Positions 1,972 through 47,751 of a stretch of DNA of 64,000 bases are shown piece after piece (the first letter of the stretch is position 1; every line of letters begins with the position of its first letter). The notes under the pieces were generated by a model. The model was not told the DNA's origin. It searched no databases and saw only the letters and a list, made by a program, of their open reading frames with translations. A program made the position numbers and the translations under genes. This stretch comes from Lichina pygmaea. Lineage: Eukaryota > Ascomycota > Lichinomycetes > Lichinales > Lichinaceae. The stretch covers positions 2,914,001 to 2,978,000 of the forward strand of contig OY730172.1 of assembly GCA_963422465.1 (NCBI GenBank), read 5' to 3'.

Positions 1972-2438
1972 TGTTAAGGCCTAGGCCGGAACGGCCCAGG
2001 TAAGCGAGGGAGAAGTGTTAGTCATGCGGAACAACATCCGACCGATCTGGTGGACGAGCAAGAGCTAAGCGAGGAGCTCGTCCGGTGGACAAGCAGGAGC
2101 TAAGCGAGGAGCTTGTCCGGTGGACGAGCAGGAGCTAAGCGAGGAGCTCGTCCGGTGGACAAGCAGGAGCTAAGCGAGGAGCTTGTCCACGCAAAAGGAT
2201 GATACCCCTCAAGGAGACCCCCCCCCTTGGGGCATCTGTATAAAGACCCCCAAAGAGCCCGGAGGGATTAGCTCTCCAGGCTGAACACATGCAAGCAATA
2301 CAAACCCATCGTACAGAGACAATAGCACAGGAGAGTTACCCCACCTGTCTATTCCTCTACTGAGTCCCTGTCTAGAATCCACCCCACGAAGCAACAGACT
2401 GTACCAGTTTCTGTGTGAACCCGGCCCAGCCTTTAACA
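1972..2438 (+). repeat. 5' LTR of Gypsy G1
   Basis: 467-bp LTR with TG...CA ends. It holds a four-unit palindromic array in U3 (2049-2188), a TATA box at 2239 (tataaag) and a likely transcript start near 2278. It is the same length as the 3' LTR. Confidence 0.93.
2049..2188. promoter_or_regulatory. Four 35-bp palindromic tandem units in U3 of G1
   Basis: Each 35-base unit has 8-base arms that pair: GGACGAGC with GCTCGTCC, or GGACAAGC with GCTTGTCC. In this LTR units 1 and 3 use the G/C version and units 2 and 4 the A/T version, so pairing is kept in all four. Unit junctions carry CCGG. The same array in the 3' LTR is at 7911-8050, where two units now mismatch. Position upstream of the TATA box suggests an enhancer or a binding array for a dimeric factor; that function is inferred. 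Confidence 0.6.
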
Positions 2439-2440
2439 GT

Positions 2441-2448
2441 TTCAGCCT
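2441..2448 (+). promoter_or_regulatory. Putative self-primer binding site of G1
   Basis: TTCAGCCT, two bases after the LTR end, is complementary to AGGCTGAA at 2278-2285, which lies 39 bases after the start of the TATA box. This matches the Tf1-type layout in which the 5' end of the transcript folds back to prime reverse transcription. No tRNA-type site starting with TGG is present. Confidence 0.6.
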
Positions 2449-5400: not shown

Positions 5401-7198
5401 GAGTTGAAGGATAAATTCATCTCCGCACCCATTTTGGCATCATTCAATCCTGAGAAGAGGATCATTCTGGAGACTGATGCCTCAGACCAAGCATTGGGAT
5501 CCTGCTTGTGTCAACCAGACGCTGACAACCGCTTACACCCTGTCACGTACTGATCGAGAAAGTTCTCTGGCCCAGAACTGAGGTACGATGTTCACGGCAA
5601 AGAGTTGTTAGCAATCGTCAACGTATTCCAAGAATAGAGGCCTTACTTGGAGGGGGTAAAATACACGATAGATATGTACTCAGACCACAAAAACCTAGCT
5701 TACTTCACAACGATGAAGAAGCTAAACTGATGACAAGTTTGATGGGCAGAGTTGTTAGTATCATACAACTTCCAAATTCTCTACCGGAAGGGCACTGAAA
5801 ATGCTTGAGCGGACACCCTCAGCAGGCGACCAGACCTGATGGATGAGAAAACAACAGAGAAACACCCAATCCTAGCGACAAAAGGACAAACCCTGGTCTA
5901 CGCCCAACCCCAACTAGCAACAACAGAAACAAAGGGTCCACTCCTTACCCTTGGCCACAAGACAGCAAACAAAAAGGAAACTGTGCCAGGAAGAGCACAA
6001 GAGGAGGTGATCTGGAGGCACCATGACAGGCCTTTGCATGGACACCCCAGGTGAGATAAAACCTTGGAGAAAATCCAAAGGAACTACCACTTCGACAGAA
6101 TGAAGTGCAAGGTGACAGAGTTCATCTGCAACTGCGAACAGTGTGCGAAGAACAAACCATCAAGGCATAAGCCCTACGGGCAGGCACAGCAGATGGACCT
6201 ACCCGAGGCACCATGGAAAACTATCACGATGGATTTTGTGGTCAAGTTGCCAAAGTCAACAGACCCAGCAACAAAGGTGGTATACAATAGTATTTTGGTG
6301 GTCGTTGACAAACTCACCAAATACACCCACCTGGTCCTGTGGAAAGAGTCAGGAACCGCAAACAAACTCGCGAGTGTTCTACTCAGAGAGCTGGTAAGCC
6401 ACCGAGGGCTACCAAAGACAATTATCTCAGATCAAGACAAACTCTTCACCTCGAAATTCTGGAACACGTGGACAAGGCAACTTGGCATTGATACAAGGAT
6501 GTCAACAGCCTACCACCCACAAACCGACAGACAAACTGAGCGGACAAACCAGACAATGGAGCAGTATCTACAACACTACATCAACCACCAGCAGGACAAC
6601 TGGGTGGAACTGCTACCAATAGCCCAGTTTGCGTACAACAACCAGCAACACAGTGTGACAGGGACAACACTGTTCTTTGCGAACTACGGAAGAAACCCCT
6701 GATGGCAGGCAACAGTAGGAGGCAACGTTGTCGATGTTAGCAAACTCACTGCTATGCACGAGATGATGAAAACAATGATCAACTGTGCCCAGAACACCAC
6801 CGCCCGCTGATTACATGACAAAAGGTTGAAGGGACCAACCCTGGAAAGAGAGGATAAGGTCTACCTATCAACAAAAAACCTGCGCTTGAAGCGACCAAGC
6901 AAAAAGCTGGACTATGTACAAATCAGACTATTCGAAATTGAGAAGCGTACTGGGAAGGTCAACTATCGACTGAGACTGCCACGAAAAGCAAGGATACACC
7001 GAGTATTCCATGTCTCGCTGCTTGAACCAGCACCCAGCGACGCAGAGGTCAAAACAGAATGGAACTTCGAGGACGACAAAGAAGAGTACGATGTCGAAAG
7101 GATCCTGGATAGTCGGAGAAACAGACGGAAAACTGAGTACCTGGTGAAGTGGTTAGGATTTGACGAAGAGGAGAATTCGTGGGAACCAACCGAGAACT

Positions 7199-7771
7199 TC
7201 AGCTCTGCGATGAACCAGAAACTGGTGGATTACCACCGAGCAAATCCGCAGTGACCAGGTCTGACAGAGACAACAGCTTGAGAGAAGCCAAAGCCTCCGA
7301 AGAGAAGACATCCTCAAAGGACAGCGGAGCAGCAGCTTGACAGGCCTCCTGTTCACAGATAACGTGGAGGGCCTCTTGTTCCTGAGCATCAAGGGACTCT
7401 TGATCCTTGATGGCTGACAGCTCACGACAGATGGCATCGGCCTCCTTCTGTGAGAGATAACCCAGCTGCTGGCGGAGGTGGATCTGCCGGGGAAGCAGCT
7501 TTGACAGTTGGTCATCAGTCTCCCGCAGCTGAGCCTCAAGCTGCTCACACTCAAGTTCCATCTTCTTCCATTCTGATTCCGAGAGATGAAGGTCGCAGCG
7601 ACGACCCTTCTCGATGCACTGACAACAAAAAGATGATGCAGAACTCACGACACACTTGGCGTGGTCACGATGACAAGCACCGCATGCGATTTTTGATTCC
7701 TTGCCCATTTTGCCAACATGACAAGAGAGAAAACTGTGACGACAAGTTCGAGTTGTCTGGCTTTGGTTCAT
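7199..7771 (-). CDS. Antisense Zn2Cys6-type zinc cluster and coiled-coil protein carried by Gypsy G1
   Basis: Open frame of 190 codons on the strand opposite to gag-pol, with ATG at 7769-7771, between the chromodomain and the 3' LTR; its end overlaps the last 56 bases of the sense frame. Residues about 30-63 have six cysteines spaced C-x2-C-x6-C-x8-C-x2-C-x6-C, the fungal Zn(II)2Cys6 consensus. A Leu/Glu/Lys-rich stretch follows (about 68-130) and looks like a coiled coil, the usual order in Gal4-type dimeric DNA-binding proteins. Only one basic residue, rather than several, sits in the first half-cluster, so DNA binding is not certain. G2 has a frame of the same layout in the same place. The function is unknown; control of the element's own LTR repeats is a guess. 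Confidence 0.6.
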   Translation of the reverse strand: MNQSQTTRTCRHSFLSCHVGKMGKESKIACGACHRDHAKCVVSSASSFCCQCIEKGRRCDLHLSESEWKKMELECEQLEAQLRETDDQLSKLLPRQIHLRQQLGYLSQKEADAICRELSAIKDQESLDAQEQEALHVICEQEACQAAAPLSFEDVFSSEALASLKLLSLSDLVTADLLGGNPPVSGSSQS

Positions 7772-7833
7772 GGCAAGAAGAGGAGCAGGAACGAAAAGGA
7801 TCTGGGGACAGAACTCTTGGAGGGAGGGGATAG

Positions 7834-8300
7834 TGTTAAGGCCTAGACCGGAACAGCCCAGGTAAGCGAGGGAGAAGTGTTAGTCATGCAGAACAACATC
7901 CGACTGATCCGGTGGACAAGCAAGAGCTAAGCGAGGAGCTTGTCCAGTGGACAAGCAAGAGCTAAGCGAGGAGCTCGTCCGGTGGACAAGCAGGAGCTAA
8001 GCGAGGAGCTTGTCCGGTGGACGAGCAGGAGCTAAGCGAGGAGCTTGTCCACGCAAAAGGATGATACCCCTCGAGGAGACCCCCCCCCTTGGGGCATCTG
8101 TATAAAGACCCCCAAAGAGCCTGGAGGGATTAGCTCTCCAGGCTGAACACATGCAAGCAATACAAACCCATCGTACGGAGACAATAGCACAGGAGAGTTA
8201 CCCCACCTGTCTATTCCTCTACCGAGTCCCTGTCTAGAATCCACCCCACAAAGCAACAGACTGTACCGGTTTCTGTGTGAACCCGGCCCGGCCTTTAACA
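7834..8300 (+). repeat. 3' LTR of Gypsy G1
   Basis: 467 bp, preceded by a purine-rich tract (ggagggaggggatag) that fits a polypurine tract. It is followed by the target duplication ACTTG at 8301-8305 and then by the resumed LINE A sequence. Confidence 0.93.
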
Positions 8301-8842
8301 ACTTGCCTCAGCTTTCTGTAGCTCTTTGTAGAGCTTCAGGTTGTTGTGGTGAGGCTTTTGACAAAACACCTGCCACCCAGAGTAGCTTTTTCTTTTCTTC
8401 TCCTCCTATTGGTTTTCCCACTCTTTAACAAAGAGTTTCTGTAGTTCTTTCTTTGAAATCGCCTGGTTAGTAGTTAATTGGTTTAACCAAGTGAACTTCC
8501 AATAGGGGGAGATAGTTGAGGATTCCTTTAAAGGTTTCTTCACAGAAGAGGCATAGTGGGAGATATTGGAAAAGATATTGTCCAGAAGTGTTTTCAGAGA
8601 GGAGGTTTGAATAGAAGAGAGAAAACAGGCTGTGCGAAATTTGAAATAGAGATCTAGAGGTAAAAGAAAAAGCTCACTCTCTAATAAGAAAGATGGAGTG
8701 GCTTTGAAGGCACCTCCAATAAGTCTCAGGCATTTGTTCTGGAATGTGCTAAGAGAAGAGATATTAGAAGATTTTCTTAGAGGATTGAACCAGATCCCCA
8801 CAGCATAACTCAGTAAAGATCTGAGTATTGCAGTGTACACAA

Positions 8843-9116
8843 TGTGACGAGGCAATGGCAGAGCAGAACTCGAGCCTAACTGATTCGGTAACCTTGACCT
8901 GACTTGGCTTGAGACTTGAGACTTGGATTGATGTACAAGACAAAAGACAAGGAAGGAAGAAAAAGAGAAAAGAAGAGAAGAAGCTGGGGGAGCAGGAGAA
9001 GTTCTTATAGGCAGGGGATCAGGCAACAGCGGAGCAAACAGGCAACAGTGCAGATGGAACTTCCCGGCAAGGTGCGTGACTTGTGCCAGATATGCAACTG
9101 GGCCAGAACCGTGACA
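8843..9116 (-). repeat. Solo LTR of Gypsy family G3 inside LINE A
   Basis: 274-bp LTR in minus orientation (TGTGACGAGG...CCGTGACA on plus), flanked by cacaa on both sides (8838-8842, 9117-9121). No internal sequence is left, as expected after LTR-LTR recombination. LTR plus duplication is 279 bases, so the LINE frame passes through it. Confidence 0.92.
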
Positions 9117-9964
9117 CACAAGACGTGATGTGAGGACTGGGAAACCCCAAGTAGAATATGAAGTTCTAGAAAGAGAGGAAAGTGCTTTCTGGGCTTTTTG
9201 AAGAATAATTCTCTGGTGCTTATGCCAGTGGAGTTTTGCATCCAGGTACACTCCTAATACTCGCACTTCTTCTTTTGGTCTTAGAATCACATTCCCCAGT
9301 CTGAGCTTAAGCTGAAGATTGTCTGATCTTCTTCTGGAAAAATGAAGTATTTCATATTTCTCAGGAGAGAAGACTATTCCATGTCTTGCAGCCCATGATA
9401 GACATTTGAGGTGTGTGTTCTTTAACTTCAGAAGGTTGCTTTTTAGAGAGTGTCCAAATGCAAGCAGATTTGTATCATCTGCAAATCCCAGAGCAGAAAC
9501 ACCAGTGGAAGGAGAGTGTACAGTTTCATGAAGTTCAGAAATGTAAAATAGAAATAGAATAGGAGATAAAGGGGAACCTTGGGGAACTCCACAGTGAATA
9601 GGAATAGCAGAAGACTCAGAGTCATCAAACACAAGAGTGGTAGAACAACTGGTGCAGAAAGAGAGAATCCAGGAAGATAGCCAGAGAGGAATTCCTTTTT
9701 TCTCTAGGATTTGTTGGAGGATCTTAGGTAGAACTCTGTCATAGGCTCCTGAGATATCCAGAGAAAGTAGAGATGCAACCATGCCTTCCTTCCAGACTTT
9801 TTCCACTTGGGAAGTTAGTAGGAAGAGTGCTGATTCAGTTGATCTTTCTTTCCTGAAGCCCATCTGGATTTCTGGCCAAAGTCTAGCTTCTTCTGCTACC
9901 TTGCTTAGCCTGGTTGCTGTAATAGCTTCCATCAGCTTGCCAGTTGTGTTTAGCAAAGCTATAG

Positions 9965-11086
9965 GCCACAGTTGAGCTATGCCGAGGTATAGCGCAGAGT
10001 CGCTATCCCTTGCAGAGTCTCTGCCACGCTTCCCCGCAGTCCTGAGGCCTTTTGCGCTCCGCCGTGTACGCTCACCCCTAGGTCCTGCTTTGGAGCGCCG
10101 GGTTGCCAGCCCGGAGCCCACGCTCCAACTGCAGTTTGCTCCTTGAGCCCGTTATTTGCAGCCTGAGCCTGCACTCTGTACGGACCGGCATGCACTTCTG
10201 TTCTCTCAGGCCATATAGACAGTCTTGTAGTAGGCCCAGACCCTACTGCCGTCACTGCCATTATATACCACACCCCGCAGCTCTCGCTGTTTTGTGTTAC
10301 CTCTGTAGATCTCTCGTACAGAGGCCGACCATACCTCGCAGGCTCTACAGACCCTGCAGGCTATGCCAGCACCTGCAGGACTGCCTTTCCAGCCCACTAA
10401 CCAAGTAGGGAGAAGTCTCCGTCTGCCCACTGTCGCCTGTGGAGCCCCGGTTGTACGTGGTGGCCCACTGGAGATCCAGTGCCCTGGCCCCAGTCTGTAG
10501 GTGGCCTGAAGAGAATCTGTGGCAAGACCTTAGGCAAAACCATCAAGCCAGCACTTTGACTATCACACGGCCCTTAGGTACTGGAGTGGCAGAAACCCTT
10601 CGTGCCACCTGCTTGCCTTCTTTAACATGTAGTCTCTGTTTGATTAACAACACCGCGGTACAGACATCACTCCCCTCCTAGAACAAGATCCTCAGTACAT
10701 CAGCTGCTGGAGACTCTGCTAGAAGGGGGGTGTGTGATAGAAACTCCTCTCGTCTACTCCAGAGGTGCCCTGTCGGGTGTCTAGACTTCACATCCACCAG
10801 TTGCAAGGCTGGCTTCAGGCTGTAGCGTACACAGTAGACATCCGTCGGGTGGTTTTCATAACCAGTTTGGTCGAAGTCCTCTGTTCTGCTGATGTTGCTT
10901 CACGGGGGTGTCCAGGGTGCCTGCGCGACACCTCCGGTGGCCTGTCACTCCGCGGGCACCAGCAGCTTGACTGGTGACTCAATTAGCTCTCGGTGCAGCG
11001 ACTACAAGCAGCTTGGGAGACTGCCTGCCATCGCTGCCCCGAGGTTCCCAGCCTGCACCACATGGAGGTTTGAGTTGTCGCAGGTC
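9965..11086 (-). repeat. Repeat X, copy 1 (5' part of the LINE-X chimera)
   Basis: 1.1 kb of GC-rich sequence between the truncated LINE A and its right target duplication. A second, more diverged copy lies at 18897-19379 and 25921-26036. I recognise no protein or known element in it. One plus-strand frame (10103-10408) has several CxxC pairs, but it is short and unsupported. The orientation is given relative to the LINE. Confidence 0.65.
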
Positions 11087-13519
11087 TTCAAAGACATAAA
11101 CCAGAGAAGAAATTCTTTGAGCACTTTAGGCTTTTGAAGTAAAGTAGAGAAATTGTAGGAAAGAAAAGTAGCTCCCTGTCTTTGAGTAAGAAACTTGTTA
11201 CAAGAGAAAGTGATATATTAAGCAGTCTCTTCTCTAACATCACAGAAACATAGAGAGGATTGGAAGTCTGGAACATTTACTCTGAAAAGAAAGCTGGCTA
11301 GTCCTATCCTTACTGATAGAATCTGCAAGTAAAGACTAGCCTCAGCTTTTCTCAAGTCTTTGAAAACTTTGAGATTTTTCTTTTGGGGTAGTCTGCAAAA
11401 TAGCTCCCAGACTGGAGAACACTTCTGTCTGTTTGCCTGCCATCTGGCTTCCCACTCTTTCTGAAACACTTCTTGAAGTTGTTTCTTAGAGTAATCTTGG
11501 TTAGTGGTTAGTTTTTCTAGGCATCTTGCTTTCGAGTTAGGTGTGACAGTAGACAGAGACTTTGGAGGTGTTCTCAGAGTAGAAACAAAAACAGTGATCT
11601 GGGCAAAAAGCTTATAAAGAAGTGAGGGGAGAGAATTAGAAAGAGTATTAGAAAAATAGAAAGATTGTAGGAAAGTTGCTGTTCTGAATTTGAAATAAAG
11701 GTCAAGAGGTAGTAGGAATAGTTTTCCTTTCATAAGAAATGTAGGAGTAGCTTTAAAGACACTTCCTATAGTTTTTAGACACTTAGTCTGGAAAAGATTT
11801 AAAGAGGAAATATTAGAAGGTTTTTTGTGAAGATTGAACCAGACTTCTACTGTATAGCTGAGAAGTGATCTCAATTTTGTAGTGTAGACAAGTCTAGCAG
11901 AGAGAACAGGTAGACCCTATGTAGAAAAAGTAGTTCTAGAAAGTGCTGAGAAAAACTTGGAAGCTTTCTGTAACATGATTTTCTGGTGTTTTTTCTAGAG
12001 AAGCTTGGAATCATAGTGTAGTCCCAGAATACACACTTCTTCCTTAGACTGTAGTACCACTTCTCCAAGTCTTAGACTGAGCTGAAGATTATCTGTTCTT
12101 CTTCTAGAAAAATAGAGAAATTCATACTTTTCAGGTGTAAACTTCATTCTATGTTTTCTTACCTAGTCTAAACACTTGGAGTGAGTGGACTTTAGCTTCA
12201 GGAGATTACTTTTAAGAGAAGAGAAAAATACCAGAAGATTTGTATCATCTGCAAAACCCAGAGCTGATACACCTTTCTCTGGTGTATAAACAATATTATG
12301 AAGATCTGAAATATAGAAAAGAAATAAAATAGGAGAGAGAGGTGAACCTTGAGAGACTCCACAGTGTACTGGAAAAAGAGAAGACTCTGAATCATCAATA
12401 ATAAGAGAGGTTTTTCTTTGGGTAGTGAAAGAAAAGATCTAGTTAATAAACCAGCTGGGAATTCCATTTCTCTCCACAATTTTCTTGAGAATTTCTGGCA
12501 GGACTCTATCATAAGCTTCTGAGATATTCAGGGAAAGAAGACTGGCTACTATTCCTTCCTTCCAGACTTTTTCAACTTGGGAAGTGAGTAGAAATAGTGT
12601 AGACTCAGTTGATCTTCCTTTTCTGAAGCCTATCTGGATTTCTGGTAGTAGGTTTTCTTTCTCAGCCAGTTCACTTAGCTTTATGGCTGCCAGAGCTGCC
12701 ATCAGCTTCCCAATTGTGTTGAGAAGTGCTATTGGCCTCCAACCTTTGGTATAGCAATAGAATCCTTTGCTAGGCTGTCTCAAGTATATTGTTGTAGCTG
12801 CTTTGTATCTGTCAGAGAAATATTCTAGCTTCCAGCAGGCCTCCAGAACTTTGGCTATCTTTTTATTGAAACAGTCTCCTAATACCTTTAGAAATCTATT
12901 AGGTAGAGTATCTTTCCCAGAAGCTGTAAAAGGTTTTTTCTTTTTCAGAATATTGTGAATATCTTCTTTGGAGATTTCCTGAGATAGCTGGTGTTGTTGG
13001 TGGTTTGCTGGCTGGTCCTGGGATTCTGGTACTGGCTGGAGAAGTACAGGGAAGAACTGGGTTTTGAATACTTCTACTTTTTCTGTGAAAGTTCTGGCAG
13101 TTTCTCCATCTTGCTTTGTGAGCTCTGGAACAATTAGAAGTTCTGGTGGTTTGCCAGCTTTTTCTTTACCCCACTTAGCTCTTTTCCAGTGCTTTTGTGT
13201 TTCAGCCAGGTTCTGGAGTTGTTCTCTGAATTTTTTTCTTTTAGTATTCTTGATCATGTATTTCTTTTTCTTTATTACCTTCTCAAGTTTGTAGACTGGT
13301 TCTTGGTTTTGGAAGACTTTTCTTCTTAGTTTTCTTTACTCTTTAATTTTCTTTTTAATCTCTTAGTTCCACCAGAGAGCAGTGTACTTTAAGTCTCTCA
13401 GAGGTCTTGTTATCTTGTCAGCCAGTTCTTGAAGAGCTTTGTCCAGATTTTCCAGATAGTTGTCCACTTTCTCTCTGTTAAGTAGTGGTGGAATAGGGGG
13501 AAGATTCTTAGCTTCTTTC

Positions 13520-13794
13520 TGTGACAAGGCAATGGCAGAGCAGAACTTGAGCCTAACTGATTCAGTAACCTTGACCTGACTTGGCTTGAGACTCGAGACT
13601 TGGATTGATGTACAAGACGAAAGACAAGGAAGGAAGAAAAAGAGAAGAAGAAGGGAAGAAGCTGGGGGAGCAGGAGAAGTTCTTATAGGCAGGGGATCAG
13701 GCAACAGTGGAGCAAGCAGGCAACAGTGCAGATGAGACTTCCCAGCAAGGTGCGTGACTTGTGCCAGATATGCAACTGGGCCAGAACTGTGACA
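13520..13794 (-). repeat. 3' LTR of G3 copy B
   Basis: 275-bp LTR with TG...CA ends. Next to it inside the element is a C-rich tract (the polypurine tract on the coding strand). Confidence 0.9.
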
Positions 13795-16700
13795 TTACCC
13801 TCCTCCTTCACATGGCGAACTCCTGTGAGCCTCAGGCCGCTTGTGGGCGTAGTTCTGTGGCTGTGGTTTCCTTGGGTATTTCTCATGGAAGTTGTAGATG
13901 GTGTCTTTGGTGTTGTCAAGATGTTCAATAGACTCTTCAGTGCCATCTTCAATTGGCCATCCAGACTATTTGACCAGGTACTTGAACTTCTGTTGAGATG
14001 TTGCTGGCTTGGAGTCAAGGATTTCTTCAACCTGGAACTCTTCATCTGTGTCTTGACCAATGACAGGGCCAGGGTGTTCATTTGATTGGCCAGGGATAGG
14101 ATTAGCAGGTGTCAGACGTAGAAGGGAAACGTGAAAGACAGGGTAGATCTTGAGAGTGTGTGGAAGCTCCAGATGGCAGGCACAGCTTCTGACTGTCTTC
14201 AACACCTTGAATAGTCCAATCCACTTGTCGTCAAGCTTTTTGCATAGGCGGTGTGTCCTGATGTTCTTGGTATTCAGCCAAACAAGATCTCCAGTTTGAT
14301 AGGATGGTGACAGGACTTGATGCAAATTGGCAGTGTGAGCTTGAGCTTTCTGGGATAGTCGGAGTTCAGCTTGCAACTGTTCCAGAATCTGCGTCATTTC
14401 TCCAGAGATTCCCATAGCATCTTGGTTGCAGGCTTCACTCGTGGGTGTGATGCTGAGCTGTGGATGGAACCCTTTGTTGGCAAAGAACAGTGACATGCCA
14501 GAGGAATCAGACTGGGAGTTGTTCTACGTGAACTCTGCCAGAGGAAGCTATTGGACCCAGTCATCTTGGAGATAGTTGACATAGGATCTCAGGTAGCGTT
14601 CAAGCTCCTGATTCTCTTGTTCTGTCTGACCATCTGTCTCTGGGTGGTGTCCTGAGGATAGTCGTAGCATGATGTCAAGATGGGCACAGAGTACTTTCCA
14701 GAATAAGCTGACAAACTGACCTTCTCTGTCTGAGACAATACTCCTGGGCAAGCCATGGGTACAGACAACAAACTGGATGAACATCCAGACAAGATTTGAG
14801 GTTGTCATCTCAGCACATGGCACAAAGTGGTATTCTTTGGTGAGACAGTCAGTGATGACCCAGATATGCTTGGCACCAGGGAAGCAGGCATCTCTTGACT
14901 TGGGCAAGTCAGTAATGAAATCTATAGCCAGATCCTGCCAACATTGCTGAGGCATGGGAAGAGACAGCAGCTCTCCTTGGCGATCACAGGCAGGCTTTGC
15001 TTGAGAGTAGACATGACAATTCCTGATATACTGCCATATGATGTTCACCATCTTTGGCCAATAGTACTAACAAGACAGGAGATTGTGGGTCTTGGCAATC
15101 CCAGTGTGGCCAGCCATTGCTTGGTCATGGGCTTCTTGGAACAGGTGTAGGCGTAGCTCATCGTTCTCAGGGATCCAGAGTCAGTTCTTGTAGAAGAGAT
15201 AGTCATTTTCCAAGCTGCAGTCTGAGAGAGACACTTCTTGACTGTGCCTGACACTATCCCTTAGCATCTGTGACACTGTTGCCACTGGATCACCTTCAGC
15301 AAGGTTGTTATAGGTAGCTTGGATGATGTCTGAAAGAGGTGCAGCACCAGGTTCAGTGTCAACTGGTGCAGCTTCTGAATATCTCAGGATCTGGATAGGC
15401 TTGACTTGAACCTCTGAATGTGCAAGATTCTTGGGCTTGAGGATGACTTGCTCCATGAAGTCTTGACAGGGATCACTGTCTGACAGGAGGTCTTGGGAAT
15501 GTTGAGTGAGGGTGTCGGCCTTGCACTGACTGCCTGGACAGTAGCTGATCTTGAAATTGAAGTGTGACAAGAACTCACTCCAACAGGCTTGACAGCGGGA
15601 AAAGCACTTTGACGATATGAAGTACTCCAAGTTCTTGTGATCAGAGATCACTTTGACAGATTCTGGAGATCCTTCAAGCTCTGCTCACTATTCTTCAAAG
15701 ACACAGACAATTGCCAGCAACTCTTTGTCGTAGAGCTTGTAGTTGCATTCTGCCAGCAGATGGTGGTGTGACAAGAAGGCAACAGGGCATAGAACTCCTT
15801 CATGATCTGGCTGTGACAGGACAGCACCAGAGATGTAGTCAGAAGTGTCAGTCTCAACAACACACTCCTTCTCCAAATCAAAGTGCTGCAGGATGGGTGC
15901 AGTGCTGAACGCCTTCTTGATACTTTCAAACAAGTGCTGCTCTGGGGTTTCCCACTTGAAGGCAATAGTCTTCTTGGTCAGAGCTGTGAGCAGGGATGCA
16001 AGCTTGGTAAAGTCTTTGATGAACTGGCAGTAGAAGTTTGCAAAGGTAATAAAACTCTGCACTTCCTTGAGACTGGCAGGAGGATTCCACTCCTTGATGG
16101 CGTCAGTCTTGGCTGGGTCCATGCTCACAGATCTGGGTCAGCCATCTTCAGTGGCAGACTGAAAGATGAGGCCAAGGTACTTGACTTGATGTACTTCAAA
16201 GTTGTACTTGGAGATGTCAACTTGCAGGCTTGCATCTTGTAGTTGACTGAGAACAAGCTTGACATACTTCTGGTGTTCCTTGAGTGTCTGACTGTAGACA
16301 AGGATGTCATCCACATAAGCAGTGCCAAAGACATCAAGGATGTTAGGTCCCAAAACATCATTGATGTAGTTCTGGAATGTGCTTGGAGTATTGGCAAGAC
16401 CAAAGGGCATGACAGGGTATTTGTAGAGGCCTGAGTGTGTGCGGAACGCAGTCTTCTATTCTTCACCTTCCTTCATCTGGATATGGTTGAAGGCACCAAC
16501 AATATCAAGCTTGGTGTACCACACAGCTTTGCAAAGCTGGTCCAACATCTCCCAGATCAGTGGCAGAGGGTAACAGTTCTTGATGGTGATGGCGTTGAGT
16601 GCTCTGTAGTCTACACAGAAACACAATCCACCTTCTGGCTTCTTGACAAAGAGGACTGGTGTAGCAGCAGGTGATGAAGATGCTTGAATGAAGCCCTTGT

Positions 16701-18549
16701 TCAGGTTCTCTGTCAGGTACTTCTTGAGAACTTCAAGTTCTTCTCTGCTCATGCTGTACAGAGGTCCAGAGGGTGCCTGGGTTCCTGGTTCCATCTTGAT
16801 CTTGTGGTCAACTCCTGGGTGTAGAGAAGGAAGCTTGTCAGCGTTATCCTTGCTGAAGATGTCCAGGAACTTGTGGTACTGAGCAGGGAGAAGTGTGGCA
16901 GGATCCACACACTTCTTTGGCTTCAACACCTGCTCAATGTCTCTCAGAGAAACACTGAACACCTGGTGATCTGGCTTGGCAGCAAGGAGAGAAAATGTGG
17001 CAGTATTGATGGGGATTGGCGTGGCAGAAAGGGGCTTGGAATCCTGAGGCTTTCCAGCAGACATCTTGGCTTCAAGATCCAAAGAGATTGGATAGCTATT
17101 GTTTGACTTGAGGTATGTGGATCAGCAGTGATCTGACTTGAATATGATTAAGGTGTTTGTCTAATCAATGTGTGGCCTGTGCTTCTGGAGCCATGGCATC
17201 CCCAGAATCATGTTATAGTGAAGGCCAGAAGACACAAAGAGAGAGACTTCCTCCTGGTGCACGCCATGTGCCATAGTCATGATTGTCTTGGTGAGATGTG
17301 TGGTTTGTGACATCTTGCCATCGAATGATCGCAATGTGTGTGGGTAGGGGAGAGGTTCTTGGTGAAGGGATTGCACAAAGGAAGCACCAATGCAGCCAAA
17401 TGCTGAACAGCCAGAGTTGATGAGAGTATTGCACTTGAATTTCCCATCTAGGATACAAGGAAGAAACAAGCACTTGCTGTCTAACTGCTGGTCTGGAGAC
17501 AGATAGCCAACATGGAGATCCTTTTCATATTCTTGGGCGTGACAATAACCAAGGACTACTTGTTTTCTGACTCTGGAGTAGTCTCAACAGTGGCAGACTT
17601 GGTGGTGGTTGTGGTGGTGGTAACAACAGGCATGCTTTTCACTGGACAGAAGGTTGAGACGTGACCTTGGTTCCCACAGTAGAAGCAGAAGCCTTTGCTT
17701 TGGTGACATTCTCACTCTTCTGGCGTCAGCTTAGAGTGGCTGGGATCTATGGTAGGACTTGGTGGCTGTGGCGTGAAGGCTGGCTTGATGAACTCTGACT
17801 GTGGAACTGAGGCTTGGGTGGGAGGTGCTTGACGTGGACGGCGAGAGTTGGCAGAAGTGGCACGCAACTGGTTGTCCTGCAGCTGGCATTCCTCAACAAG
17901 CTTCTGATAGCTGATGTCCTTGAGGTTGATGCTGACAAGCTGCTTGGCAAGCTCTTCAGAGACAGCACATCGAAGATAGGACTTCAAGGCCTTGTTGTTG
18001 AAGCCTGTGCGTGGAGCATACTGATTGAACTCTGTGAAGAACTCGGCAAAGGAACAGTTGGCCTGATGCAAGGTGATGAGCTTTCTCTGAGCTAGGAACT
18101 CTGGGTCTGGGTTGGAGAAGGTGTTCCGGAGATCTTGGACAATGTTGTGCCAGTCAATGTACTGGCCAGCTGTGATCTTAGCTGAGATGTAGGACTGCGC
18201 AGTGCCAGTTGTGCGTGAAAAGACGTACACAATCCATGATGTTTCCGTGGGGTACCAGTCAGTGTTGAGCGTTATCTTGAGTAACAGTGACATGATGAAG
18301 CTCTCAAGCTTCTCATGCGTGATTTCTGTGTTTCCGCCATCACCACTGAAGATCTCTGGGTCAGCAGTGTGTTTGGACTTGGACTTGGGAGTAGTGTTAG
18401 TAGCTTGAATTCGCATGAACTCTGCAAACATGTTGTGAAGGAACTTGTCATTTCCAGCAACTGGCATGGCTTGGTCTGGTTGTTGAGACATAACAAGAAT
18501 GTGAACGTGGCTTGGTGAAGTGTGTTATGGTTGGGTTGGTCTTTCGTAG

Positions 18550-18896
18550 TGTGACAAGGCAATAGCAGAGCAGAACTCAAGCCTAACTGATTTCAGTAAC
18601 CTTGACCTGACTTGGCTTGAGACTTGAGACTTGGATTGATGTACAAGACGAAAGACAAGGAAGGAAAAGAGAAAAGAAGAAGAGAAGAAGCTGGGGGAGC
18701 AGGAGTAGTTCTTATAGGCAGGGGATACAGCAGAGCAAACAGGCAACAGTGCAGATGGAACTTCCCGGCAAGGTGCGTGACTTGTGCCAGATATTCAACA
18801 AGGCAATGGCAGAGCAAACAGGCAACAGTGCAGATGGAACTTCCCGGCAAGGTGTGTGACTTGTGCCAGATATGCAACTGGGCCAGAACTGTGACA
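18550..18896 (-). repeat. 5' LTR of G3 copy B, with an internal tandem duplication
   Basis: 347 bp, about 72 bases longer than the other LTR. The extra length is a tandem duplication around 18736-18882, containing the core that begins gcagagcaaacaggcaacag. Copy D has a different duplication over the same region of its 5' LTR. Confidence 0.88.
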
Positions 18897-19379
18897 GTCC
18901 CCTGGCTCCAGATTGTGGATCGTACGAAGAGACTTTGTGGCAAGGCCTTAGGCAAAACCATCAAGCCAGCACTTTGGCTATCACACAGCTCTTAGGCACT
19001 GGAGCGGTGATGTCTCCTCGTACAACCACTCTCCTTCTTTAACAGGTGGTCCCTGTTCGATTAACAACACCACAGTGCCAAGGCCACTCTCCCCCTAGCA
19101 GATCCTCACACGTTAGCTGGAGACTCTGCTAGGAGGGTGACGTGATGAGAACTCCTCTCGACTACTCCAGAGGTGCCCTATCAGATGCCTAGACTTCACA
19201 TCCACCAGCTGTGGGGCTGGCTTCGGGCTGTAGTGTACACAGTAGTTGTCTGTCGGGTGGTTTTCCTCTCCCAAGCTTGGTCGCAGTCCTCTGTTCTGCT
19301 GTAGCTGTTTCACAGGGGCATCCAGGGTGCCTGCGCGACACCTCCGGTGGCCCATCACTCCGCAACACCAGCAGCTCGA

Positions 19380-19977
19380 TGTTACGACCCAGGGATGGGA
19401 GCCACTCATTTATAGGCAATCAGGCCGTGGGCCAGGCAAGAGGACACCATGGAAGTCAAGTGACCAACCAACAAGGGGTCACGTGACTGTCGAGACACAC
19501 ACGGGAGTCTCGACGCATGATGCATGAAGCATCAAGACAATCTCACCAGTCTTGACGCAGGGTGCATGAAGCATCGAGACAATCTCACCCGTCTCGACGC
19601 AGGATGCATGAAGCATCAAGACAATCTCACCCGTCTTGACGCAGGGTGCATAACATGGTGGGACTGTCAAGACAATCTCACCTGTCTTGACGTCAAGACT
19701 GTCAAGACAATCTTGATCATCTTGACAGGCCAGCACTATATAGTCTGGCGATAGTTCCCTTATAGAACAATCGTCTTCAACTCATGTTGTGATCCAGACA
19801 ACTAGATCTACTTCAATACAATCCTTTGTACAAAGCCGTGATCAGGTGTCACCACCACCACATTCCACCAAACCCCTTCGCACTCCTTGACACTTCTCTC
19901 CTGCGAGAACCAACCCGCCTTCCACCTCTCGCCCTAATCCTATACTCGGATAGGATGGTATGGTACGGACCGCAACA
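19380..19977 (+). repeat. 5' LTR of Gypsy G2
   Basis: 598 bp, TGTTACG...CCGCAACA. U3 carries about three and a half tandem 41-bp units (about 19500-19670) with inverted arms such as GTCTCGA and TCGAGAC. TATA box at 19737, likely transcript start near 19773. Confidence 0.92.
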
Positions 19978-19979
19978 CT

Positions 19980-19987
19980 TTGAAGAC
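19980..19987 (+). promoter_or_regulatory. Putative self-primer binding site of G2
   Basis: TTGAAGAC, two bases after the LTR, is complementary to GTCTTCAA at 19773-19780, which lies 36 bases after the TATA start. This is the same geometry as in G1 and G3. Confidence 0.6.
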
Positions 19988-21123
19988 CCTCAAGGATGAG
20001 TACCTCAGGAGCAACCAACCCCAACTTCCCAGATGGAAAGATTAGTGTCGCCAAGCCAGACCTGTTCTACAGCGAAAGAAACAAGGTTGACGACTGGCTC
20101 ATGCAACTCCAAGTCTACTTTCAATTCCAACCAGAGACGAAGCTGCCTAAGGAAAAGTGGCCCCTCTTTGCAACCACTTACATGAGAGGCAATGCTTATT
20201 GATGGATCAAACCCTACGTCAACAAACATCTCTCAGGAAACGGAGACCACGACAGCACAACAGAATGGATGACAAAATGGACGTGATTCAAGGATAAGAT
20301 CAAAAGGATCCTTGGACCATCTAACAAAGATAAAGTGGCTATACGAATGATCCAGCACATCAAACAACAACGCTCAGCCGCAGAGTACACCACGCAGTTC
20401 AAACAATACTCAGTACTGACTGACTGGGACGACGACGCCCTGATGGTCATGTACTGACGTGGACTCAAGGAAAACATGAAGGATGAAATTACCTTTGACG
20501 GACGAGCGGTCGACACACTGGACAAGCTCATCGCACAAGCAATCAACATCGATAACAAACTATTCGAGCGAGCGATAGAAAAGCGCCACGACAGAGGATA
20601 CAGCCACCCCGCATGGCATGTGAGCAACCACTACAAGCCACCTAACAAGGCACTGTCACATGACCCATATGGCTATGCACCCATGGAACTGGATGCAGTC
20701 CACCACAAGGGAAGGTTCACAAAGGGAAGGAACAACAAAAAGGGGAGAGCACTGAAGTGCTATGCCTGTGGCAAGCTAGGCCACATGGCGAAAGACTGTC
20801 GTTCAAAGAACAAGGTGCACCGACAGCAACTTAATACGCTTGACAGAGACTGGAATGTCATCAAGCCAGAGGACCCACCAGGAGAGACTCAGCTATCCCT
20901 CGAACAATAGGACAACTACGATCAGACATTGGAAGCAGCCCACCAACTGGCAACATCAGGAGGCAAGGACCTACCAGAACTAACAGGTCAGGACAAGGGA
21001 CAGGAGCCCTTAACCACCTCTGATAGGGACTGAGACAAACCCGCGTCTATCAAAGAAGAAATACCACGAGGAAGCTATGCTTACAGCATGGACCCACGAA
21101 ACCTACGGCACGGCGAACTACAG

Positions 21124-21396
21124 TGGAGGTTTTGCACAAGGCACTACTGCATCTACCACGAACAACTACAAAGGTACAGAGGACATTCACCCTACCACAC
21201 CACCTGCCACAAGCATTGGGTCAATTGCGAGAAGGATGCGTGTGAGATCCATCTTTGGGACAAACACCAACACACCACATTCCCCGGGCACACACATGAT
21301 TGGCACGAACACCTCATGTTCCTACAGCAAGGCAACAACTACAACTGCTACGTCGACAATTGGCAGTACTGCCTCAAGCCTGGATGTGACAAGCAT
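21124..21396 (+). other. Triple W-x2-C-x4-C-x2-H module between nucleocapsid and protease of G2
   Basis: In the frame beginning at 21088, three modules at 21124-21159, 21217-21252 and 21361-21396 each read W-x2-C-x4-C-x2-H; the last two add x3-K. They lie after the CCHC knuckle and before the protease, in a His/Cys-rich stretch. Regular spacing of three potential ligands suggests a metal-binding repeat. I recall similar motifs in other fungal Gypsy polyproteins but cannot name the family. G1 and G3 show no obvious counterpart. Confidence 0.5.
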
Positions 21397-24300
21397 CAGC
21401 AAGACAAATTCATGAACAGATTCCTCAGAACTGATGGGAATGGCTGGACCCATTGCCCAGTCAGTGGTAAGACACTTCGATCAGGAAAAGACTGAACTCC
21501 CTTGTCAAGGGGCGACATCGGGAGCTCAACAACATGACCCCTAGCAACGCAAAGCACCTGCGATTGCCTGTGTCACTACACGCCAACATGCCAGTACGGA
21601 CCTACGCACTTGTTGACTCTGGAGCCAGTGGAAACTACATTTCAAGACAACTTTACAACACCCTCGGCACTGGAAGGAGACGCAAGCAGCAGCCCTATCA
21701 GCTTGCGATGGCAAATAGACAGACAGAGCTAGTCTGCCATGAGACGCAGCCAATGGAAATAGTTACCGGACACCATGCTGAAAGGATCCACCTTGATATT
21801 GTTGAGTTGGCCACTCAGGATATCTATTTGGGGATGCCTTGGCTAAAGAAGCACAACCCAGTTGTTAACTGGAAGACAGGAGTACTCACGTTTAGGAACT
21901 GCACTAACAACGCAGCTCGGACCTGTTACCAGCCGCAGAAGGCGTGGACAGATGAGGGAAGGAGTCCTCAGTGGAACCTCACCGACAGAAAGGACGACTC
22001 TCAAAAGAAGAGGTCTGCCTCGACAGGCACACCCCGGAACCAGGTGGCCAAACAGTCAGAGATGAAGAGAGAGGAAGTTGTTAACCCTCTGGAGATCTCT
22101 GAAGAGTACCAACCTGGGTATGATAACCTCTTTCAGGAAGAGACAACGACAGCAGCGTTGCCTAAGCACTAACCTTGGGATCATGAGATCAAGTTGCAAC
22201 CAGGGACAGAGCCAGAATTTGGACCAATTTACCAGTTATCAGAGAAAGAGCTCCAAGTACTTCACGAGTACCTGGAGGAAAACCTGAAAAAGAGTTTCAT
22301 TCAAGAATCTCAATCGCCAGCAGGATACCCGATACTATTTGCACCAAAGAAAGACGGAAGTCTTCGACTTTGTGTGGATTACAGGAAACTCAACAACATT
22401 ACCATCAAGAACTGATATCTGTTGCCAAATGCGAACGAATTGCGAGACAGGATCAGCCAAGCTACAATCTTTACCAAGCTGGACTTGAAAGGAGCATACA
22501 ACCTGATACGCATGAAAAAAGGAGAAGAATGGAAGACAGCCTTCAGAACCTGATACAGACACTACAAGTATCTGGTTATGCCATTCGGACTCACAAACGC
22601 ACCAGCAACATGTCAAGCATTGATCAACAACATCATCAGAGCACACCTGGACCAAACAGCTATCACCTACCTGGACGACATTCTTGTCTACTCGAACACG
22701 CAACAGGAACATACCAAACATGTGAAGGATGTTCTACGATGCCTACAAGAGGCAGGGCTCAAGCTCAACCCAAAGAAATGCGAGTTCAACAAACTGGAAG
22801 TTGAATTCCTCAGATACATCATAGGGATTGAAGGGATCAAGATTGACTCTGAGAAAATCAAAGTGATTCAGCAATGGCCAACACCGACATCAGTTAAGGA
22901 AGTACAAGTCTTCCTGGGATTTGCCAACTTCAACTGACAGTTCATCAAGAACTACTCACAGATGGCAACACCACTGACAGAACTCATGAAGAAGGACGTG
23001 GAGTACCGGTGGACGGAGAGACAACAAAAAGCATTCCAACAGCTCAAGGACACTTGCGCCAAGGAACCAGTTCTCCTCAACTTCAAGACAGGCCAGCTGA
23101 CACGAATCGAGACAGACGCTTCAGATCAGGCAGTGGGAGCATGTCTATGCCAACAGGCAGACGGCAAGTGGCACCCAGTTGCCTACTACTCACGAAAAAT
23201 GACACAAGCGGAATGAAACTATGATATCCACGATAAAGAGCTACTGGCAGTTGTCAACGCACTTGAACACTGGAGAGTGTACGCGGAAAGCAGTTCCGAA
23301 CTCACTATTCTCACAGACCACAAGAATCTGACAACATTCACGACAACCAAGAAGCTGAACAGACGGCAAGTCAGATGGGCTGAACTCCTAGGGTAACACA
23401 AGTTCAAGATCTTGTACACCCCTGGACGAGACAATGGGAGAGCAGACGCACTAAGCCGACGAAAAGACCACATGGAAGATGATGAACGCCAAGGAACAAT
23501 CCTACGGCAGGACCAGCAAGGAAACCTGGTGCCCCAGCCACAGATCAACAAGCTCATGGCAGAAGACACTGAAGAACTAATAAGGAACTACCACGACAAT
23601 CCAGCACATGGTCACCCAGGAATCTCCAAGACCACAGACCTCATCCAACAGGCAGGGAACAATGTCATTAACCTCTGACAACATGTCACAAACTACATCA
23701 GCAAGTGTCTACTATGCCAGAAAAACAAATATGGAAGACACAAGCCATACGGAGAAGGACACCCAAACACGATACCGAGAGGCCTGTGGGAAGACGTGTC
23801 AATGGACTTCATCACAAAGCTACCCAAGTCCAAAGACCCAGTCACAGGAATCACCTACGACTCAATTATGGTGATTGTGGACAGATTCACGAAATACCTA
23901 ATAGCAGTACCATTCAAGGAAACCCACACAGCAGAGCAGTTGGGACACCTCCTACTGGACAGATTGGTCAGGGACCACAGAGTTCCAATCACAGTCATTA
24001 CTGACAGAGACAAACTCTTCACATCCAACTACTGGAAAACAATCAGTGCAGCCATGGGAACAAAACCCAAGATGTCTACGGCCTACCACCCACGAACTGA
24101 CAGCCAGACGGAGCGAGCAAACCAAGTCCTGGAGACTTATTTGCGGCATTACATCAACCAGACCCACAGCAATTGGGTACAATTATTACCAGTGGCACAG
24201 CTGGCAATCAACCAGCACAGATCAGACTCAACAAAGGAATCACCATTCTTTGCCAATTTTGGACAACACGCAAACATCAGAATGCCAAGCAGAGCTTCAC

Positions 24301-24774
24301 CAAACACGGAGAAAGCACTCCAACATGACAAGCTCCTACGACAAACGCACACGATGATGAGGCATTACCTTCAAGAGACCTCAGAAAAGATGTAACGCCA
24401 AATGGACAAAAAATCGAAAATGGCACCTCAGCTGAAGAAGGGGGATAAAGTCTACCTCCTCACAAAAAATTGGAAAGTCAAGAAACCAAGAACAAAGAAA
24501 CTGGACCATGTCAAGGTCAGACTATTTTCAGTCGAAGAAAGAACTGGACCAGTCAACGTCAGACTGCGACTACCGAGAGACGCTCGGGTACACCCAAACT
24601 TTCACATCTCAATGATCGAATTAGCTGACCAGAGCACACCCTTGCAGGAAACATTTCATTACCAACCAGAGGAAGAACAGGAATTCGAGGCTGAACAGAT
24701 CCTGAAGAGAAAAGGTCAGCGATACCTTGTCAAGTGGAAAGACTACCCAGACTCGGAAAATACCTGGGAGCCAC

Positions 24775-25281
24775 TCAGGAACCTCGCGAACTGCCAGCTC
24801 CTCCTGCAGCAGTTCCGGCAGGAGCAGGACTGAACAGCTCGGCCTGCAGCGCGGACGTGTCAATGACCGTCGCCGACAAATCTTCACCATCCACCTCTAT
24901 TTCAGCAACAAGGCACTGGAGCTTCTTCTTTGCTTGACCCTCAGCACCCTCAAGAACCTTTCGCTTTTGGGACACACGAGCCTGCAGCTTGGCAAGCTGC
25001 TTGACAAGAGCATCCCGCTTGGCCTCATCAACAGCCAAATCCTCGCGAAGGTTATCCCGAGTCATGTTCAGCGACTTCCAAGAAAGTGACACACAGGACT
25101 TTCCCTGATGAGTGCACTCAGCGCACTTCAACTTATCGTTGTCGTCAGACATTCGGAAGCAGGGCTTGTGGTTCAAAACACAGAAGTCACACGGAGCAAG
25201 CGACACAAAGTTATGATCACAGATCTGGGCTGCCAGTTGGTTTCGGTAAGCAGAGGCACATGATTTTGCAGATATACTCAA
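24775..25281 (-). CDS. Antisense Zn2Cys6-type zinc cluster and coiled-coil protein carried by Gypsy G2
   Basis: Open for 168 codons on the minus strand between the chromodomain end and the 3' LTR. Six cysteines are spaced C-x2-C-x6-C-x11-C-x2-C-x6-C, again within the fungal Zn2Cys6 consensus, followed by a Leu/Lys/Asp-rich stretch predicted by eye to be a coiled coil. The codon at 25279-25281 is TTG, not ATG. The frame stays open further into the LTR, so the true start or a 5' exon is unresolved. A minus-strand TATA-like CCTATAAATGAG lies in the 3' LTR near 25350. Sequence similarity to the G1 antisense frame is low but the layout is the same. Confidence 0.55.
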   Translation of the reverse strand: MSISAKSCASAYRNQLAAQICDHNFVSLAPCDFCVLNHKPCFRMSDDNDKLKCAECTHQGKSCVSLSWKSLNMTRDNLREDLAVDEAKRDALVKQLAKLQARVSQKRKVLEGAEGQAKKKLQCLVAEIEVDGEDLSATVIDTSALQAELFSPAPAGTAAGGAGSSRGS

Positions 25282-25319
25282 GAATTCATCAGGACGATGA
25301 ATGAAGGAGAGGAGGGTAG

Positions 25320-25915
25320 TGTTACAACCCAGGGATGGGAGCCACTCATTTATAGGTAATCAGGCCGCAGGCCAGGCAAGAGGACACCATGGAAGTCAAG
25401 TGACCAACCAACAAGGGGTCACGTGACTGTCGAGACACACGGGAGTCTTGACGCATGATGCATGAAGCATCGAGACAATCTCACCAGTCTTGACGCAGGG
25501 TGCATGAAGCATCGAGACAATCTCACCTGTCTCAACGCAGGATGCATGAAGCATCGAGACAATCTCACCTGTCTTGACGCAGGGTGCATAACATGGTGGG
25601 ACTGTCAAGACAATCTCACCCGTCTTGACGTCAAGACTGTCAAGACAATCTCAATTGTCTCGACAGGCCAGCACTATATAGTCTGGCGATAGTTCCCTTA
25701 TGGAACGATCGTCTTCAACTCATGTTGTGATCCAGACAACTAGATCTACTTCAATACAATCCTTTGTACAAAGCCGTGATCAGGTGTCACCACCACCATG
25801 TTCCACCAAACCCCTTCGCGCTCCTTGACACTCCTCTCCTGCGAGAACCAACCCGCCTTCCACCTCTCACCCTAATCCTATACTCGGATAGGACAGTACG
25901 GTACAGACCGCAACA
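25320..25915 (+). repeat. 3' LTR of Gypsy G2
   Basis: 596 bp, preceded by the purine tract gaaggagaggagggtag and followed by duplication CTCGA at 25916-25920. It differs from the 5' LTR by one 2-bp indel and about 27 transitions. Confidence 0.92.
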
Positions 25916-27250
25916 CTCGACTGGTGACTTGATTAGCTCTTGGTGCAGCGACTACGAGCAGTCTGGGAAGCCGCCCACCATCGACTGCCCCGAGGTTCCC
26001 AGCCTGCACCACGTGGAGGTTCGAGTTGTTGCAGGCCAGACTGGTGTTGTAGCCTGGTGAAAGTCCACTTGTGTTATGATGTCTCAGGACTGTGAGATAC
26101 TAATAGTGTCATCCACCCATTATGTCACTCTTGCTTCACTGGCCTCCAACTAGGTTGTGTCCTGTTGTCAGAGTATCAGTGTCTCAGGAACTGGTGGCAT
26201 ACTGGTTATGTTAATCTCATAATCTGTTGTGTTGAATTCAGAGATCAGGTCATTCTCCCAATAGATCTTGTTGATCTAATCTTGGACTATGTGCAGATCC
26301 TCCAGTGATCTTTGTAGATTGTTCTCCAGTTTTTTGATGTGCTGTCTGAGATTATCCTCCTGTCCAAGGAGTGTTACTTCCAACCAGTTCATGGGTAGTG
26401 TGCTTCTGGGAGCTCTTGGTGGCTTCTGAATACTCTTGCCTTTCCAGGCACCAGTGGCATTCAACTGCTTACTCTTGCCTTCTTCTTTTCTCTTGCTTCA
26501 GCAGTTGGCTGCAAGGTGGCGTACCTTCTGGTAATTATAGCACTTCTGTGTTTATTTTTTCTTTGTTGCCTGTGGTGTTGTTGTATTGATTTCCATGGAC
26601 ATTAGACTATACTTGTTCTATGCTGGCACTGTTTTCTTACTCTATAGTTTTGTATACTTGCCTCACTTCTCAAGCTCTTGTTCAAACTGTCAGTTGTTGA
26701 TATGTACTGCTGTGTCAATCATGTCTTCAAGATCAGTGAGTCAGTCTCCACATGCAATGTCATCCTTGACTTGTTTCTTGAGAGTTTGGTAGAATAGTGC
26801 TGTTAAAGCACTGTCCCCCCACTGTATCCTTACAGACAGCTGTTAGAACTTCACCACAAAGTCTGATACTGACTCTGTCTGCCATAGTGCCTGGAGCTTT
26901 TATTCCACATCTTGTTTCTTGTCAATAACTCCAAAAGTTTTCTTCACCTGGGTCTTGAAGATCAAGAACCTTCTGATGATCTGCTATGTTGCAGTCTCCA
27001 TGTTTAAGAGATCTTCCTTATTGTCAAGGAAGTCTTGTAGGTAGATGTTGAACTATGCAAACATCAGTCTGTCCAGGTAGGAGGCTGTGAATAGCACCTT
27101 CTCCTGTTCTGTCAGAAATTGTGTGGCATTAAACCTGTAGTAAAGCTCAAGCTGAGAGAAGAATAACTCCAATCCTTCTCATAATCTATCATACCTTTTC
27201 AGTGTACCTACCTTCAACAGCTTTGGAGGTAAGGTGAGGGTGGTAGAGGT

Positions 27251-47432: not shown

Positions 47433-47751
47433 TGTCACGGTTCTGGCCCAGTTGCATATCTGGCACAAGTCACGCACCTTGCCGGGAAGTCCTATCTGCA
47501 CTGTTTGCCTGTATGCTCCGCCGTTGCCGGGAAGTCCCATCTGCACTGTTTGCCTGTTTGCTCCGCCGTTGCCTGATCTCCTGCCTATAAGAACTTCTCC
47601 TGCTCCCCCAGCTTCTTCTCTTCTTCTTTTCTCTTTTCCTTCCTCGTCTTTCGTCTTGTACATCAATCCAAGTCTCAAGTCTCAAGCCAAGTCAGGTCAA
47701 GGTTACCGAATCAGTTAGGCTCAAGTTCTGCTCTGCTATTGCCTCGTCACA
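47433..47751 (+). repeat. 5' LTR of G3 copy D, with a 45-bp tandem duplication
   Basis: 319 bp, 45 longer than the 3' LTR. The extra unit (begins gccgggaagtcc, around 47505-47572) lies in U3 upstream of the TATA at 47586. Confidence 0.9.

Follow-up and report, generated by a model that had tools for sequence, protein, structure and literature searches.

The window analyzed here is a 64-kb stretch of the Lichina pygmaea genome (contig OY730172.1, positions 2914001-2978000; the genome has 32.5 Mb in 8 contigs), and it carries two retrotransposons, designated G1 and G2, each with an additional antisense gene whose predicted product resembles a fungal zinc-cluster regulator. G1 is complete and occupies positions 1972 to 8300 of the plus strand. 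Its long terminal repeats (LTRs), with the ends TGTTAAGG...TTTAACA, lie at 1972 to 2438 (5' LTR, 467 bp, plus strand, with TATAAAG at 2239) and at 7834 to 8300 (3' LTR, plus strand), and the element is flanked by the 5-bp target-site duplication ACTTG (1967-1971 and 8301-8305). The two LTRs differ at 20 positions, all of them transitions and 18 of the 20 at CpG. G2, also complete and on the plus strand, extends from 19380 to 25915, with its LTRs at 19380 to 19977 and 25320 to 25915 (both plus strand) and the 5-bp duplication CTCGA at 19375-19379 and 25916-25920. In both elements pol, on the plus strand, ends with a motif read by eye, YLVKW...ENSWEP in G1 (6826 to 7254) and YLVKW...ENTWEP in G2 (24402 to 24833), which resembles that of a chromodomain. 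With an LTR pair, a target-site duplication and a chromodomain-like pol end, G1 and G2 have the sequence features of chromodomain Ty3/Gypsy elements. A third Gypsy element, G3 (13520 to 18896, minus strand), has neither the antisense gene nor an inverted array in U3, and it was used as a negative control.

The antisense gene of G1 (7199 to 7771, minus strand) starts with ATG and encodes 190 amino acids, and that of G2 (24775 to 25281, minus strand) starts with TTG and encodes 168; in each, a cysteine cluster is followed by a predicted long helix. The G2 copy in the window has no ATG at its start, a position at which Met is read in the remaining 29 of the 30 copies retrieved. Between the start of the frame and the 3' LTR lie 62 nt of internal sequence in G1 and 38 nt in G2; at its other end each frame overlaps the chromodomain frame tail to tail, by 56 nt in G1 (7199-7254) and by 59 nt in G2 (24775-24833). 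The six cysteines of G1 (7595 to 7684, minus strand) are spaced C-x2-C-x6-C-x8-C-x2-C-x6-C, and those of G2 (25093 to 25191, minus strand) are spaced likewise with an x11 loop. When all six frames of the 64 kb were scanned, this spacing occurred in open frames at exactly two places, the G1 and G2 genes, compared with a mean of 0.03 matches in 60 first-order random windows, none of them in a frame of at least 160 amino acids. The cysteine pattern is not due to chance. The mapping of the LTRs and target-site duplications placed both frames in the interval that separates the chromodomain end from the 3' LTR, as the original prediction had it, and its claim of the fungal six-cysteine spacing was equally borne out, as was that of palindromic U3 repeats in G1 and G2 and not in G3 (see below).

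Zn2Cys6 proteins follow the spacing rule C-x2-C-x6-C-x5-12-C-x2-C-x6-8-C, and both window proteins conform to it. An alignment of 21 relatives that are 32 to 67% identical to G2 (profile A4) kept the six cysteines in all 17 rows reaching far enough, and the Trp after the cluster in 21 of 21. The AlphaFold models of the G1 and G2 proteins (mean predicted local distance difference test scores of 85.4 and 78.4) both contained a six-cysteine cluster with a short helix after each cysteine pair, the two-helix arrangement by which the cluster fold is recognized, and then a helix of 63 or 82 residues. In a Foldseek search of the PDB with the G1 model, 20 of the 24 matches were described as Zn2Cys6 proteins, and 3 more are proteins of the same kind; the matches of the models were chiefly HAP1, PPR1, GAL4, LEU3, PHO7, PUT3 and AlcR. 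The G1 core compared with 8 Zn_clus domains of the host scored 27.7, a value reached by none of 60 shuffles that preserved the cysteines. As for the helix, its insertions and deletions corresponded to exactly one heptad (+7 residues in the relative P0148, -7 in 7 of the 21), and the heptad signal itself was modest: in 5 of 9 sequences, under 50 of 1000 shuffles came up to the observed value.

The two proteins appear to be related to each other as well. A first, shallow G2 profile (A1) matched G1 in hhalign with a probability of only 2%, which the deeper profile A4 raised to 81% (E value of 1.3e-5 over 99 columns, including the cysteine region). Judged from this profile comparison, the G1-type and G2-type proteins are homologous. 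DUF3716 (PF12511) was rejected as the family to which they belong, with only 3 of the 21 relatives matching it weakly (best E value, 0.028) and an x9 first loop in the host copies; it was likewise rejected as an ancestor, since a comparison by hhalign with 3 of the 8 host copies retrieved gave 8.8% (A4) and 0.7% (A2). This six-cysteine fungal family, with its longer first loop, has nine matches in the L. pygmaea genome, four of which contain stops.

The gene is not confined to the two copies in the window. At least 150 matches each were found for G1 and G2 in the genome (from 278 and 517 first-look candidates, respectively), and among the best 30 copies fetched for each, the matched stretch was free of stops in 17 for G1 and 13 for G2. 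Altogether, six element sets, in two clades, carry the antisense gene, namely, G1, G1b, G1c, G2, G2b and G2c. G1b comprises 61 rows that are at least 85% identical, and 53 of these have no stop; G2b comprises 9 of 10 fetched copies, and G2c is a single copy set apart. In one G2c copy (L094/L081, C7:1388300-1389950) the LTR is inverted relative to the adjoining antisense frame, which suggests a rearrangement or a nested insertion. The "two divergent families" of the original prediction therefore do carry the gene, and their number was understated, six sets with homologous proteins having been found. It had also suggested that similar proteins may be annotated as "hypothetical" in other genomes, and a wide distribution as unnamed or "hypothetical" public proteins was confirmed: 73 relatives of G1 and 79 of G2 were found, nearly all of them unnamed, one being named as from Xanthoria steineri. 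The G2-type profile detected 225 relatives among the 8000 scored candidates sharing most words (the best 120 of the 225 were listed). Two of the relatives, P0138 and P0152, run on into what appears to be the antisense of the chromodomain end of G2, so that the place of the gene in the element appears to be kept there too. There were no relatives of the G1 protein in the phage collection, none of the G2 protein or of profile A4 in viral contigs, and none of profile A4 in prokaryote genomes.

About 99% of the differences between copies were transitions, and differences at CpG context made up 61% (G1) and 69% (G2) of the total. Copies thus decay after insertion, and the informative test of selection is therefore the one between families. 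Between families, the ratio of nonsynonymous to synonymous substitution rates (dN/dS) of the antisense frame was 0.26 for G1/G1b, 0.16 for G2/G2b, 0.135 for G2/G2c and 0.24 for G2b/G2c (10 random pairs each, 9 for G2b/G2c). When the last 22 codons were left out, the values were 0.22, 0.10, 0.11 and 0.24, respectively, ratios that are rough because dS exceeded 1 in three of the four comparisons. Of the other five frames, four gave 0.97 to 1.85 and the one that shares third codon positions gave 0.27 to 0.37. To judge from these ratios, the antisense frame is under purifying selection between families, and the lineages ancestral to the families have therefore retained the gene; on this sequence evidence it is a stable component of the elements, kept by selection across families. 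As an observation apart, the decay of transposable element copies in this genome consists nearly entirely of transitions, most of them at CpG, and transversions make up about 1%; this CpG-centered decay is unlike classical repeat-induced point mutation in Neurospora, which is CpA directed.

The U3 region of the G1 3' LTR contains four 35-bp units (7908 to 8047, no strand assigned), with the palindrome GCTYGTCC-N3-GGACRAGC between units; the corresponding array of the 5' LTR, placed by offset from the 3' LTR, lies at about 2046-2185. The G2 array (25445 to 25664 in the 3' LTR, no strand assigned; about 19491-19725 in the 5' LTR) is built of 42-bp units with YGAG/CTCR half-sites in a 9-bp register, as measured on the 5' LTR. 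It is flanked by divergent TATA boxes, the antisense TATAAA at 19409-19414 and the sense TATATAG at 19737 in the 5' LTR, and at 25349-25354 and 25675, respectively, in the 3' LTR. LTRs of the other families were taken from short fetches (3 for G1b, 3 for G2b, 1 for G2c and 3 of 5 tried for G1c) and assigned to families by adjacency to the antisense frame. G2, G2b and G2c have the same half-sites at the exact 9-bp register, the full form being two direct and then two inverted sites, and in all three the array is preceded by an antisense TATAAA (LTR position 26-29) and followed by a sense TATATAG. The full form YGAG-N5-YGAG-N5-CTCR-N5-CTCR occurred 1369 times in the genome, in a count that took in sites inside or outside LTRs alike, versus once for the reversed control. 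These three families also share the E-box-like palindrome GTCACGTGAC between the antisense TATA box and the half-site array.

CGAG, with CpG decay allowed, was the only 4-mer class that each of the five repeat units contained on both strands, a result equalled by 1 of 1000 shuffles, with the repeat units and the decay rule chosen after looking. As a measure meant to be less biased, we determined what fraction of U3 is made up of inverted 6-mer pairs, in the real sequence and in 300 shuffles of it. The observed value was reached by 2 shuffles for G1, by 0 and 7 for two G1b copies, by 9 and 239 for two G1c copies, and by 0 for each of G2, G2b and G2c. A significant inverted array was therefore present in at least one copy of all six families bearing the gene, versus neither of two LTR families lacking it; two G3 LTRs and one Copia LTR had no inverted 6-mer pair at all in U3. 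The LTR of a second Copia family could not be delimited and was not used. The G1c copy L096 keeps the arrangement of a direct pair and an inverted pair of half-sites, and all four half-sites have changed from ACG (or its decayed form ACA) to CAG with respect to G1b.

The best explanation of these data, and one that we consider fairly probable, is that an element-encoded GAL4-like protein binds its own LTR. According to this proposal, the antisense gene would be transcribed leftward from the 3' LTR and would yield a GAL4-type protein of about 165 to 190 amino acids, in which the six-cysteine cluster passes directly into a long, probably dimerizing helix. As a dimer or tetramer, the protein would bind the half-sites that stand in direct and inverted pairs in the U3 arrays. 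In the 5' LTR the array precedes the gag-pol TATA box, a position from which the protein could set gag-pol transcription; in the 3' LTR the identical array lies upstream of the antisense gene, where it could set its own. With one array in both LTRs, a single protein could therefore control gag-pol and itself. GAL4 sites serve the divergent GAL1-GAL10 promoters, a parallel to the proposed circuit. Half-sites that differ from family to family, for their part, suggest a binder particular to each family, and the element itself would encode it. The frames, their homology, the selection between families and the arrays are shown by the sequences, and the fold is a prediction; zinc binding, DNA binding, dimerization and expression are what we infer for the protein, and that its regulation would be activation is a guess. 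The original prediction of LTR autoregulation was strengthened by the U3 arrays adjoining the gene in four further families.

Several results weigh against this proposal. Pfam Zn_clus (PF00172) matched neither window protein, an outcome that the original prediction had named as grounds for rejection, and among the 21 relatives only 9 matched it at E values up to 1 (best, 0.002). With no match above the curated cutoff, the proteins are therefore called Zn2Cys6-like and not members of PF00172. The Foldseek E values were weak (best, 0.042), and 11 of the 30 rows in the alignment that fed the G1 model were of the G2 type. Profile searches of the PDB were weak too, the best Zn2Cys6 hits being GAL4 (E values of 0.47 with A1 and 0.27 with A4) and LEU3 (E value of 1.1 with A2). 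The G2-type profile scored 23.9 against the host Zn_clus domains, just under the 95% point of the cysteine-preserving shuffles (24.7; maximum, 31.4), and so adds little beyond the cysteine spacing, and some G1-type relatives (P0003, P0009 and P0070) lack one cluster cysteine. The zinc-cluster nature that had been predicted is nevertheless supported by the modeled fold and, for G1, by the profile comparison, although Pfam misses both proteins. In the arrays, YGAG was rejected as a universal half-site: predicted ahead for G1c, it failed there, the core being GTGGCAGAG/CTCTGCCAC. The G1c copies L097 and L098 keep the direct pair with the inverted pair partly altered; L097 and L101, an older G1-like copy for which 141 of 300 shuffles reached the observed value, were not above shuffles. 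The G1 clade has no antisense TATA box before the array, and the link between array and gene compares six families with two. Each of about 11 G1c rows, assigned by our own reading, contains at least one stop. Finally, dN/dS within families was near neutral (0.88 for G1, 1.36 for G1b and 1.10 for G2). The original prediction read divergence with a kept layout as a sign of selection, which agreed with the ratios between families (0.135 to 0.26) and not with those between copies. Neutral substitution among copies, which it had listed as grounds for rejection, is what was found within families, yet this ratio reflects decay after insertion and was dropped as a test of selection.

It is possible, though we think it unlikely, that the protein is a genuine Zn2Cys6-like nuclear protein with another job, such as assisting reverse transcription, choosing the target or bringing the preintegration complex into the nucleus, and that a host factor binds the arrays. 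The genome has Zn_clus genes of its own (27 exon matches), the GAG core is common to arrays across clades, as a single loosely specific host factor would bring about, and antisense proteins of plant elements are read in a plant review as possible accessory factors of retrotransposition. The half-sites nevertheless vary by family, with all four changed together in one G1c copy, which a family-specific binder fits better, and the two LTR families without the gene have no array.

It is more doubtful still that the inverted repeats serve as structured RNA near the 3' terminus of the genomic transcript, in hairpins, packaging or end formation, with no relation to the protein. U3 is present in the element RNA, and a mirrored half-site change such as that of G1c would preserve an RNA stem as well as a binding site. 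Against this stand the direct half-sites that, in the G2 clade, accompany the inverted ones in a fixed register of 9 bp, and the position of the array upstream of the sense TATA box; the G2b spacers, moreover, are not complementary by eye. That the gene acts through antisense RNA, as double-stranded or small interfering RNA, with the open frame as a passenger, seems very improbable: the plant review does discuss antisense transcripts as a source of small interfering RNA, but purifying selection at the codon level between families and conservation of the amino acid sequence across genomes both speak against it.

The proposed element-encoded binder resembles GAL4, HAP1, PPR1, LEU3 and PUT3 in cysteine spacing, in predicted cluster fold and in the helix after the cluster. 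Sites of the GAL4 class consist of two half-sites, direct or inverted, at a set distance, as in the U3 arrays. Fungal Zn2Cys6 regulators typically have the half-site core CGG and a middle homology domain for which the antisense proteins are too short. Unlike the five regulators named above, the putative binder is encoded by a retrotransposon, has no PF00172 match and would recognize half-sites with a GAG core. HBZ is an antisense regulator near the 3' LTR with a dimerizing DNA-binding design, a bZIP protein; no relation is claimed. HBZ, of human T-cell leukemia virus type 1 (HTLV-1), is named in PMC11963269.

Antisense genes of LTR retrotransposons are described from plants and Botrytis, with no known function. 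One of the closest is BRTN (brtn), which the Boty-like Gypsy elements of Botrytis cinerea carry in antisense (Zhao et al. 2011, Virology 417:248, as cited in PMC7264820, PMC8365987, PMC5987419 and PMC4227169). There too a fungal Gypsy element has an additional gene on the opposite strand, in the region from pol to the 3' LTR; unlike here, the excerpts of the citing accounts mention no zinc cluster or U3 array, a comparison by description and not by sequence. In plants, the aORF-3R genes (Grande gene23, RIRE2 and Retand TRP28) are likewise antisense, between pol and the 3' LTR, and shared between families; both frames of the window have the defining features of that class, being conserved, antisense to gag-pol and placed between pol and the 3' LTR. 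According to PMC7264820 and PMC11963269, the Grande antisense protein is nuclear and TRP28 is probably able to bind DNA; unlike the present proteins, TRP28 belongs to another domain, PF04195, and the passages on these genes mention no zinc cluster, with zero occurrences of the word "zinc" in either paper. Among the open-access papers covered by the search, the listed titles and beginnings of abstracts reported no zinc-cluster antisense gene in fungal Gypsy elements, and the search did not find the Zn2Cys6-like fold and U3 arrays of such elements described. An antisense gene in fungal Gypsy elements as such was already known, from brtn of Boty.

The window contains other features as well. A 394-amino-acid frame at 40996-42180 has a 9-nt-period repeat coding for Glu/Ser/Gln/Pro repeats before a hydrophobic stretch and is perhaps a host surface protein. 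Repeats with a 15-nt period, coding for TDSTPTSCA-like peptides, lie at 47180-47441 and 56182-57274 and adjoin sequence of the G3 LTR type (at 47433 and 55908). At 8406-10121 and 48264-50843 there are frames for non-LTR reverse transcriptases that look Tad1-like by eye, one of them of 859 amino acids.

Beyond L. pygmaea, these elements may represent a widespread class of ascomycete Ty3/Gypsy elements, each with its own antisense GAL4-type factor whose site coevolves with the U3 operator array, a generalization for which and against which we see equal weight. If the coevolution holds, each family would be a self-contained circuit, and its dispersed operators could recruit the factor genome-wide. 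A predicted DNA-binding fold and its candidate target lie in one element, which makes the function directly testable. Small six-cysteine "hypothetical" proteins in ascomycete annotations may be genes of transposable elements. If the proposal is true, the elements have a transcription factor of their own and scatter the sites for it across the host genome, which would bear on host gene regulation, on the interaction between transposable element families and on the sharing of zinc-cluster regulators by hosts and elements.

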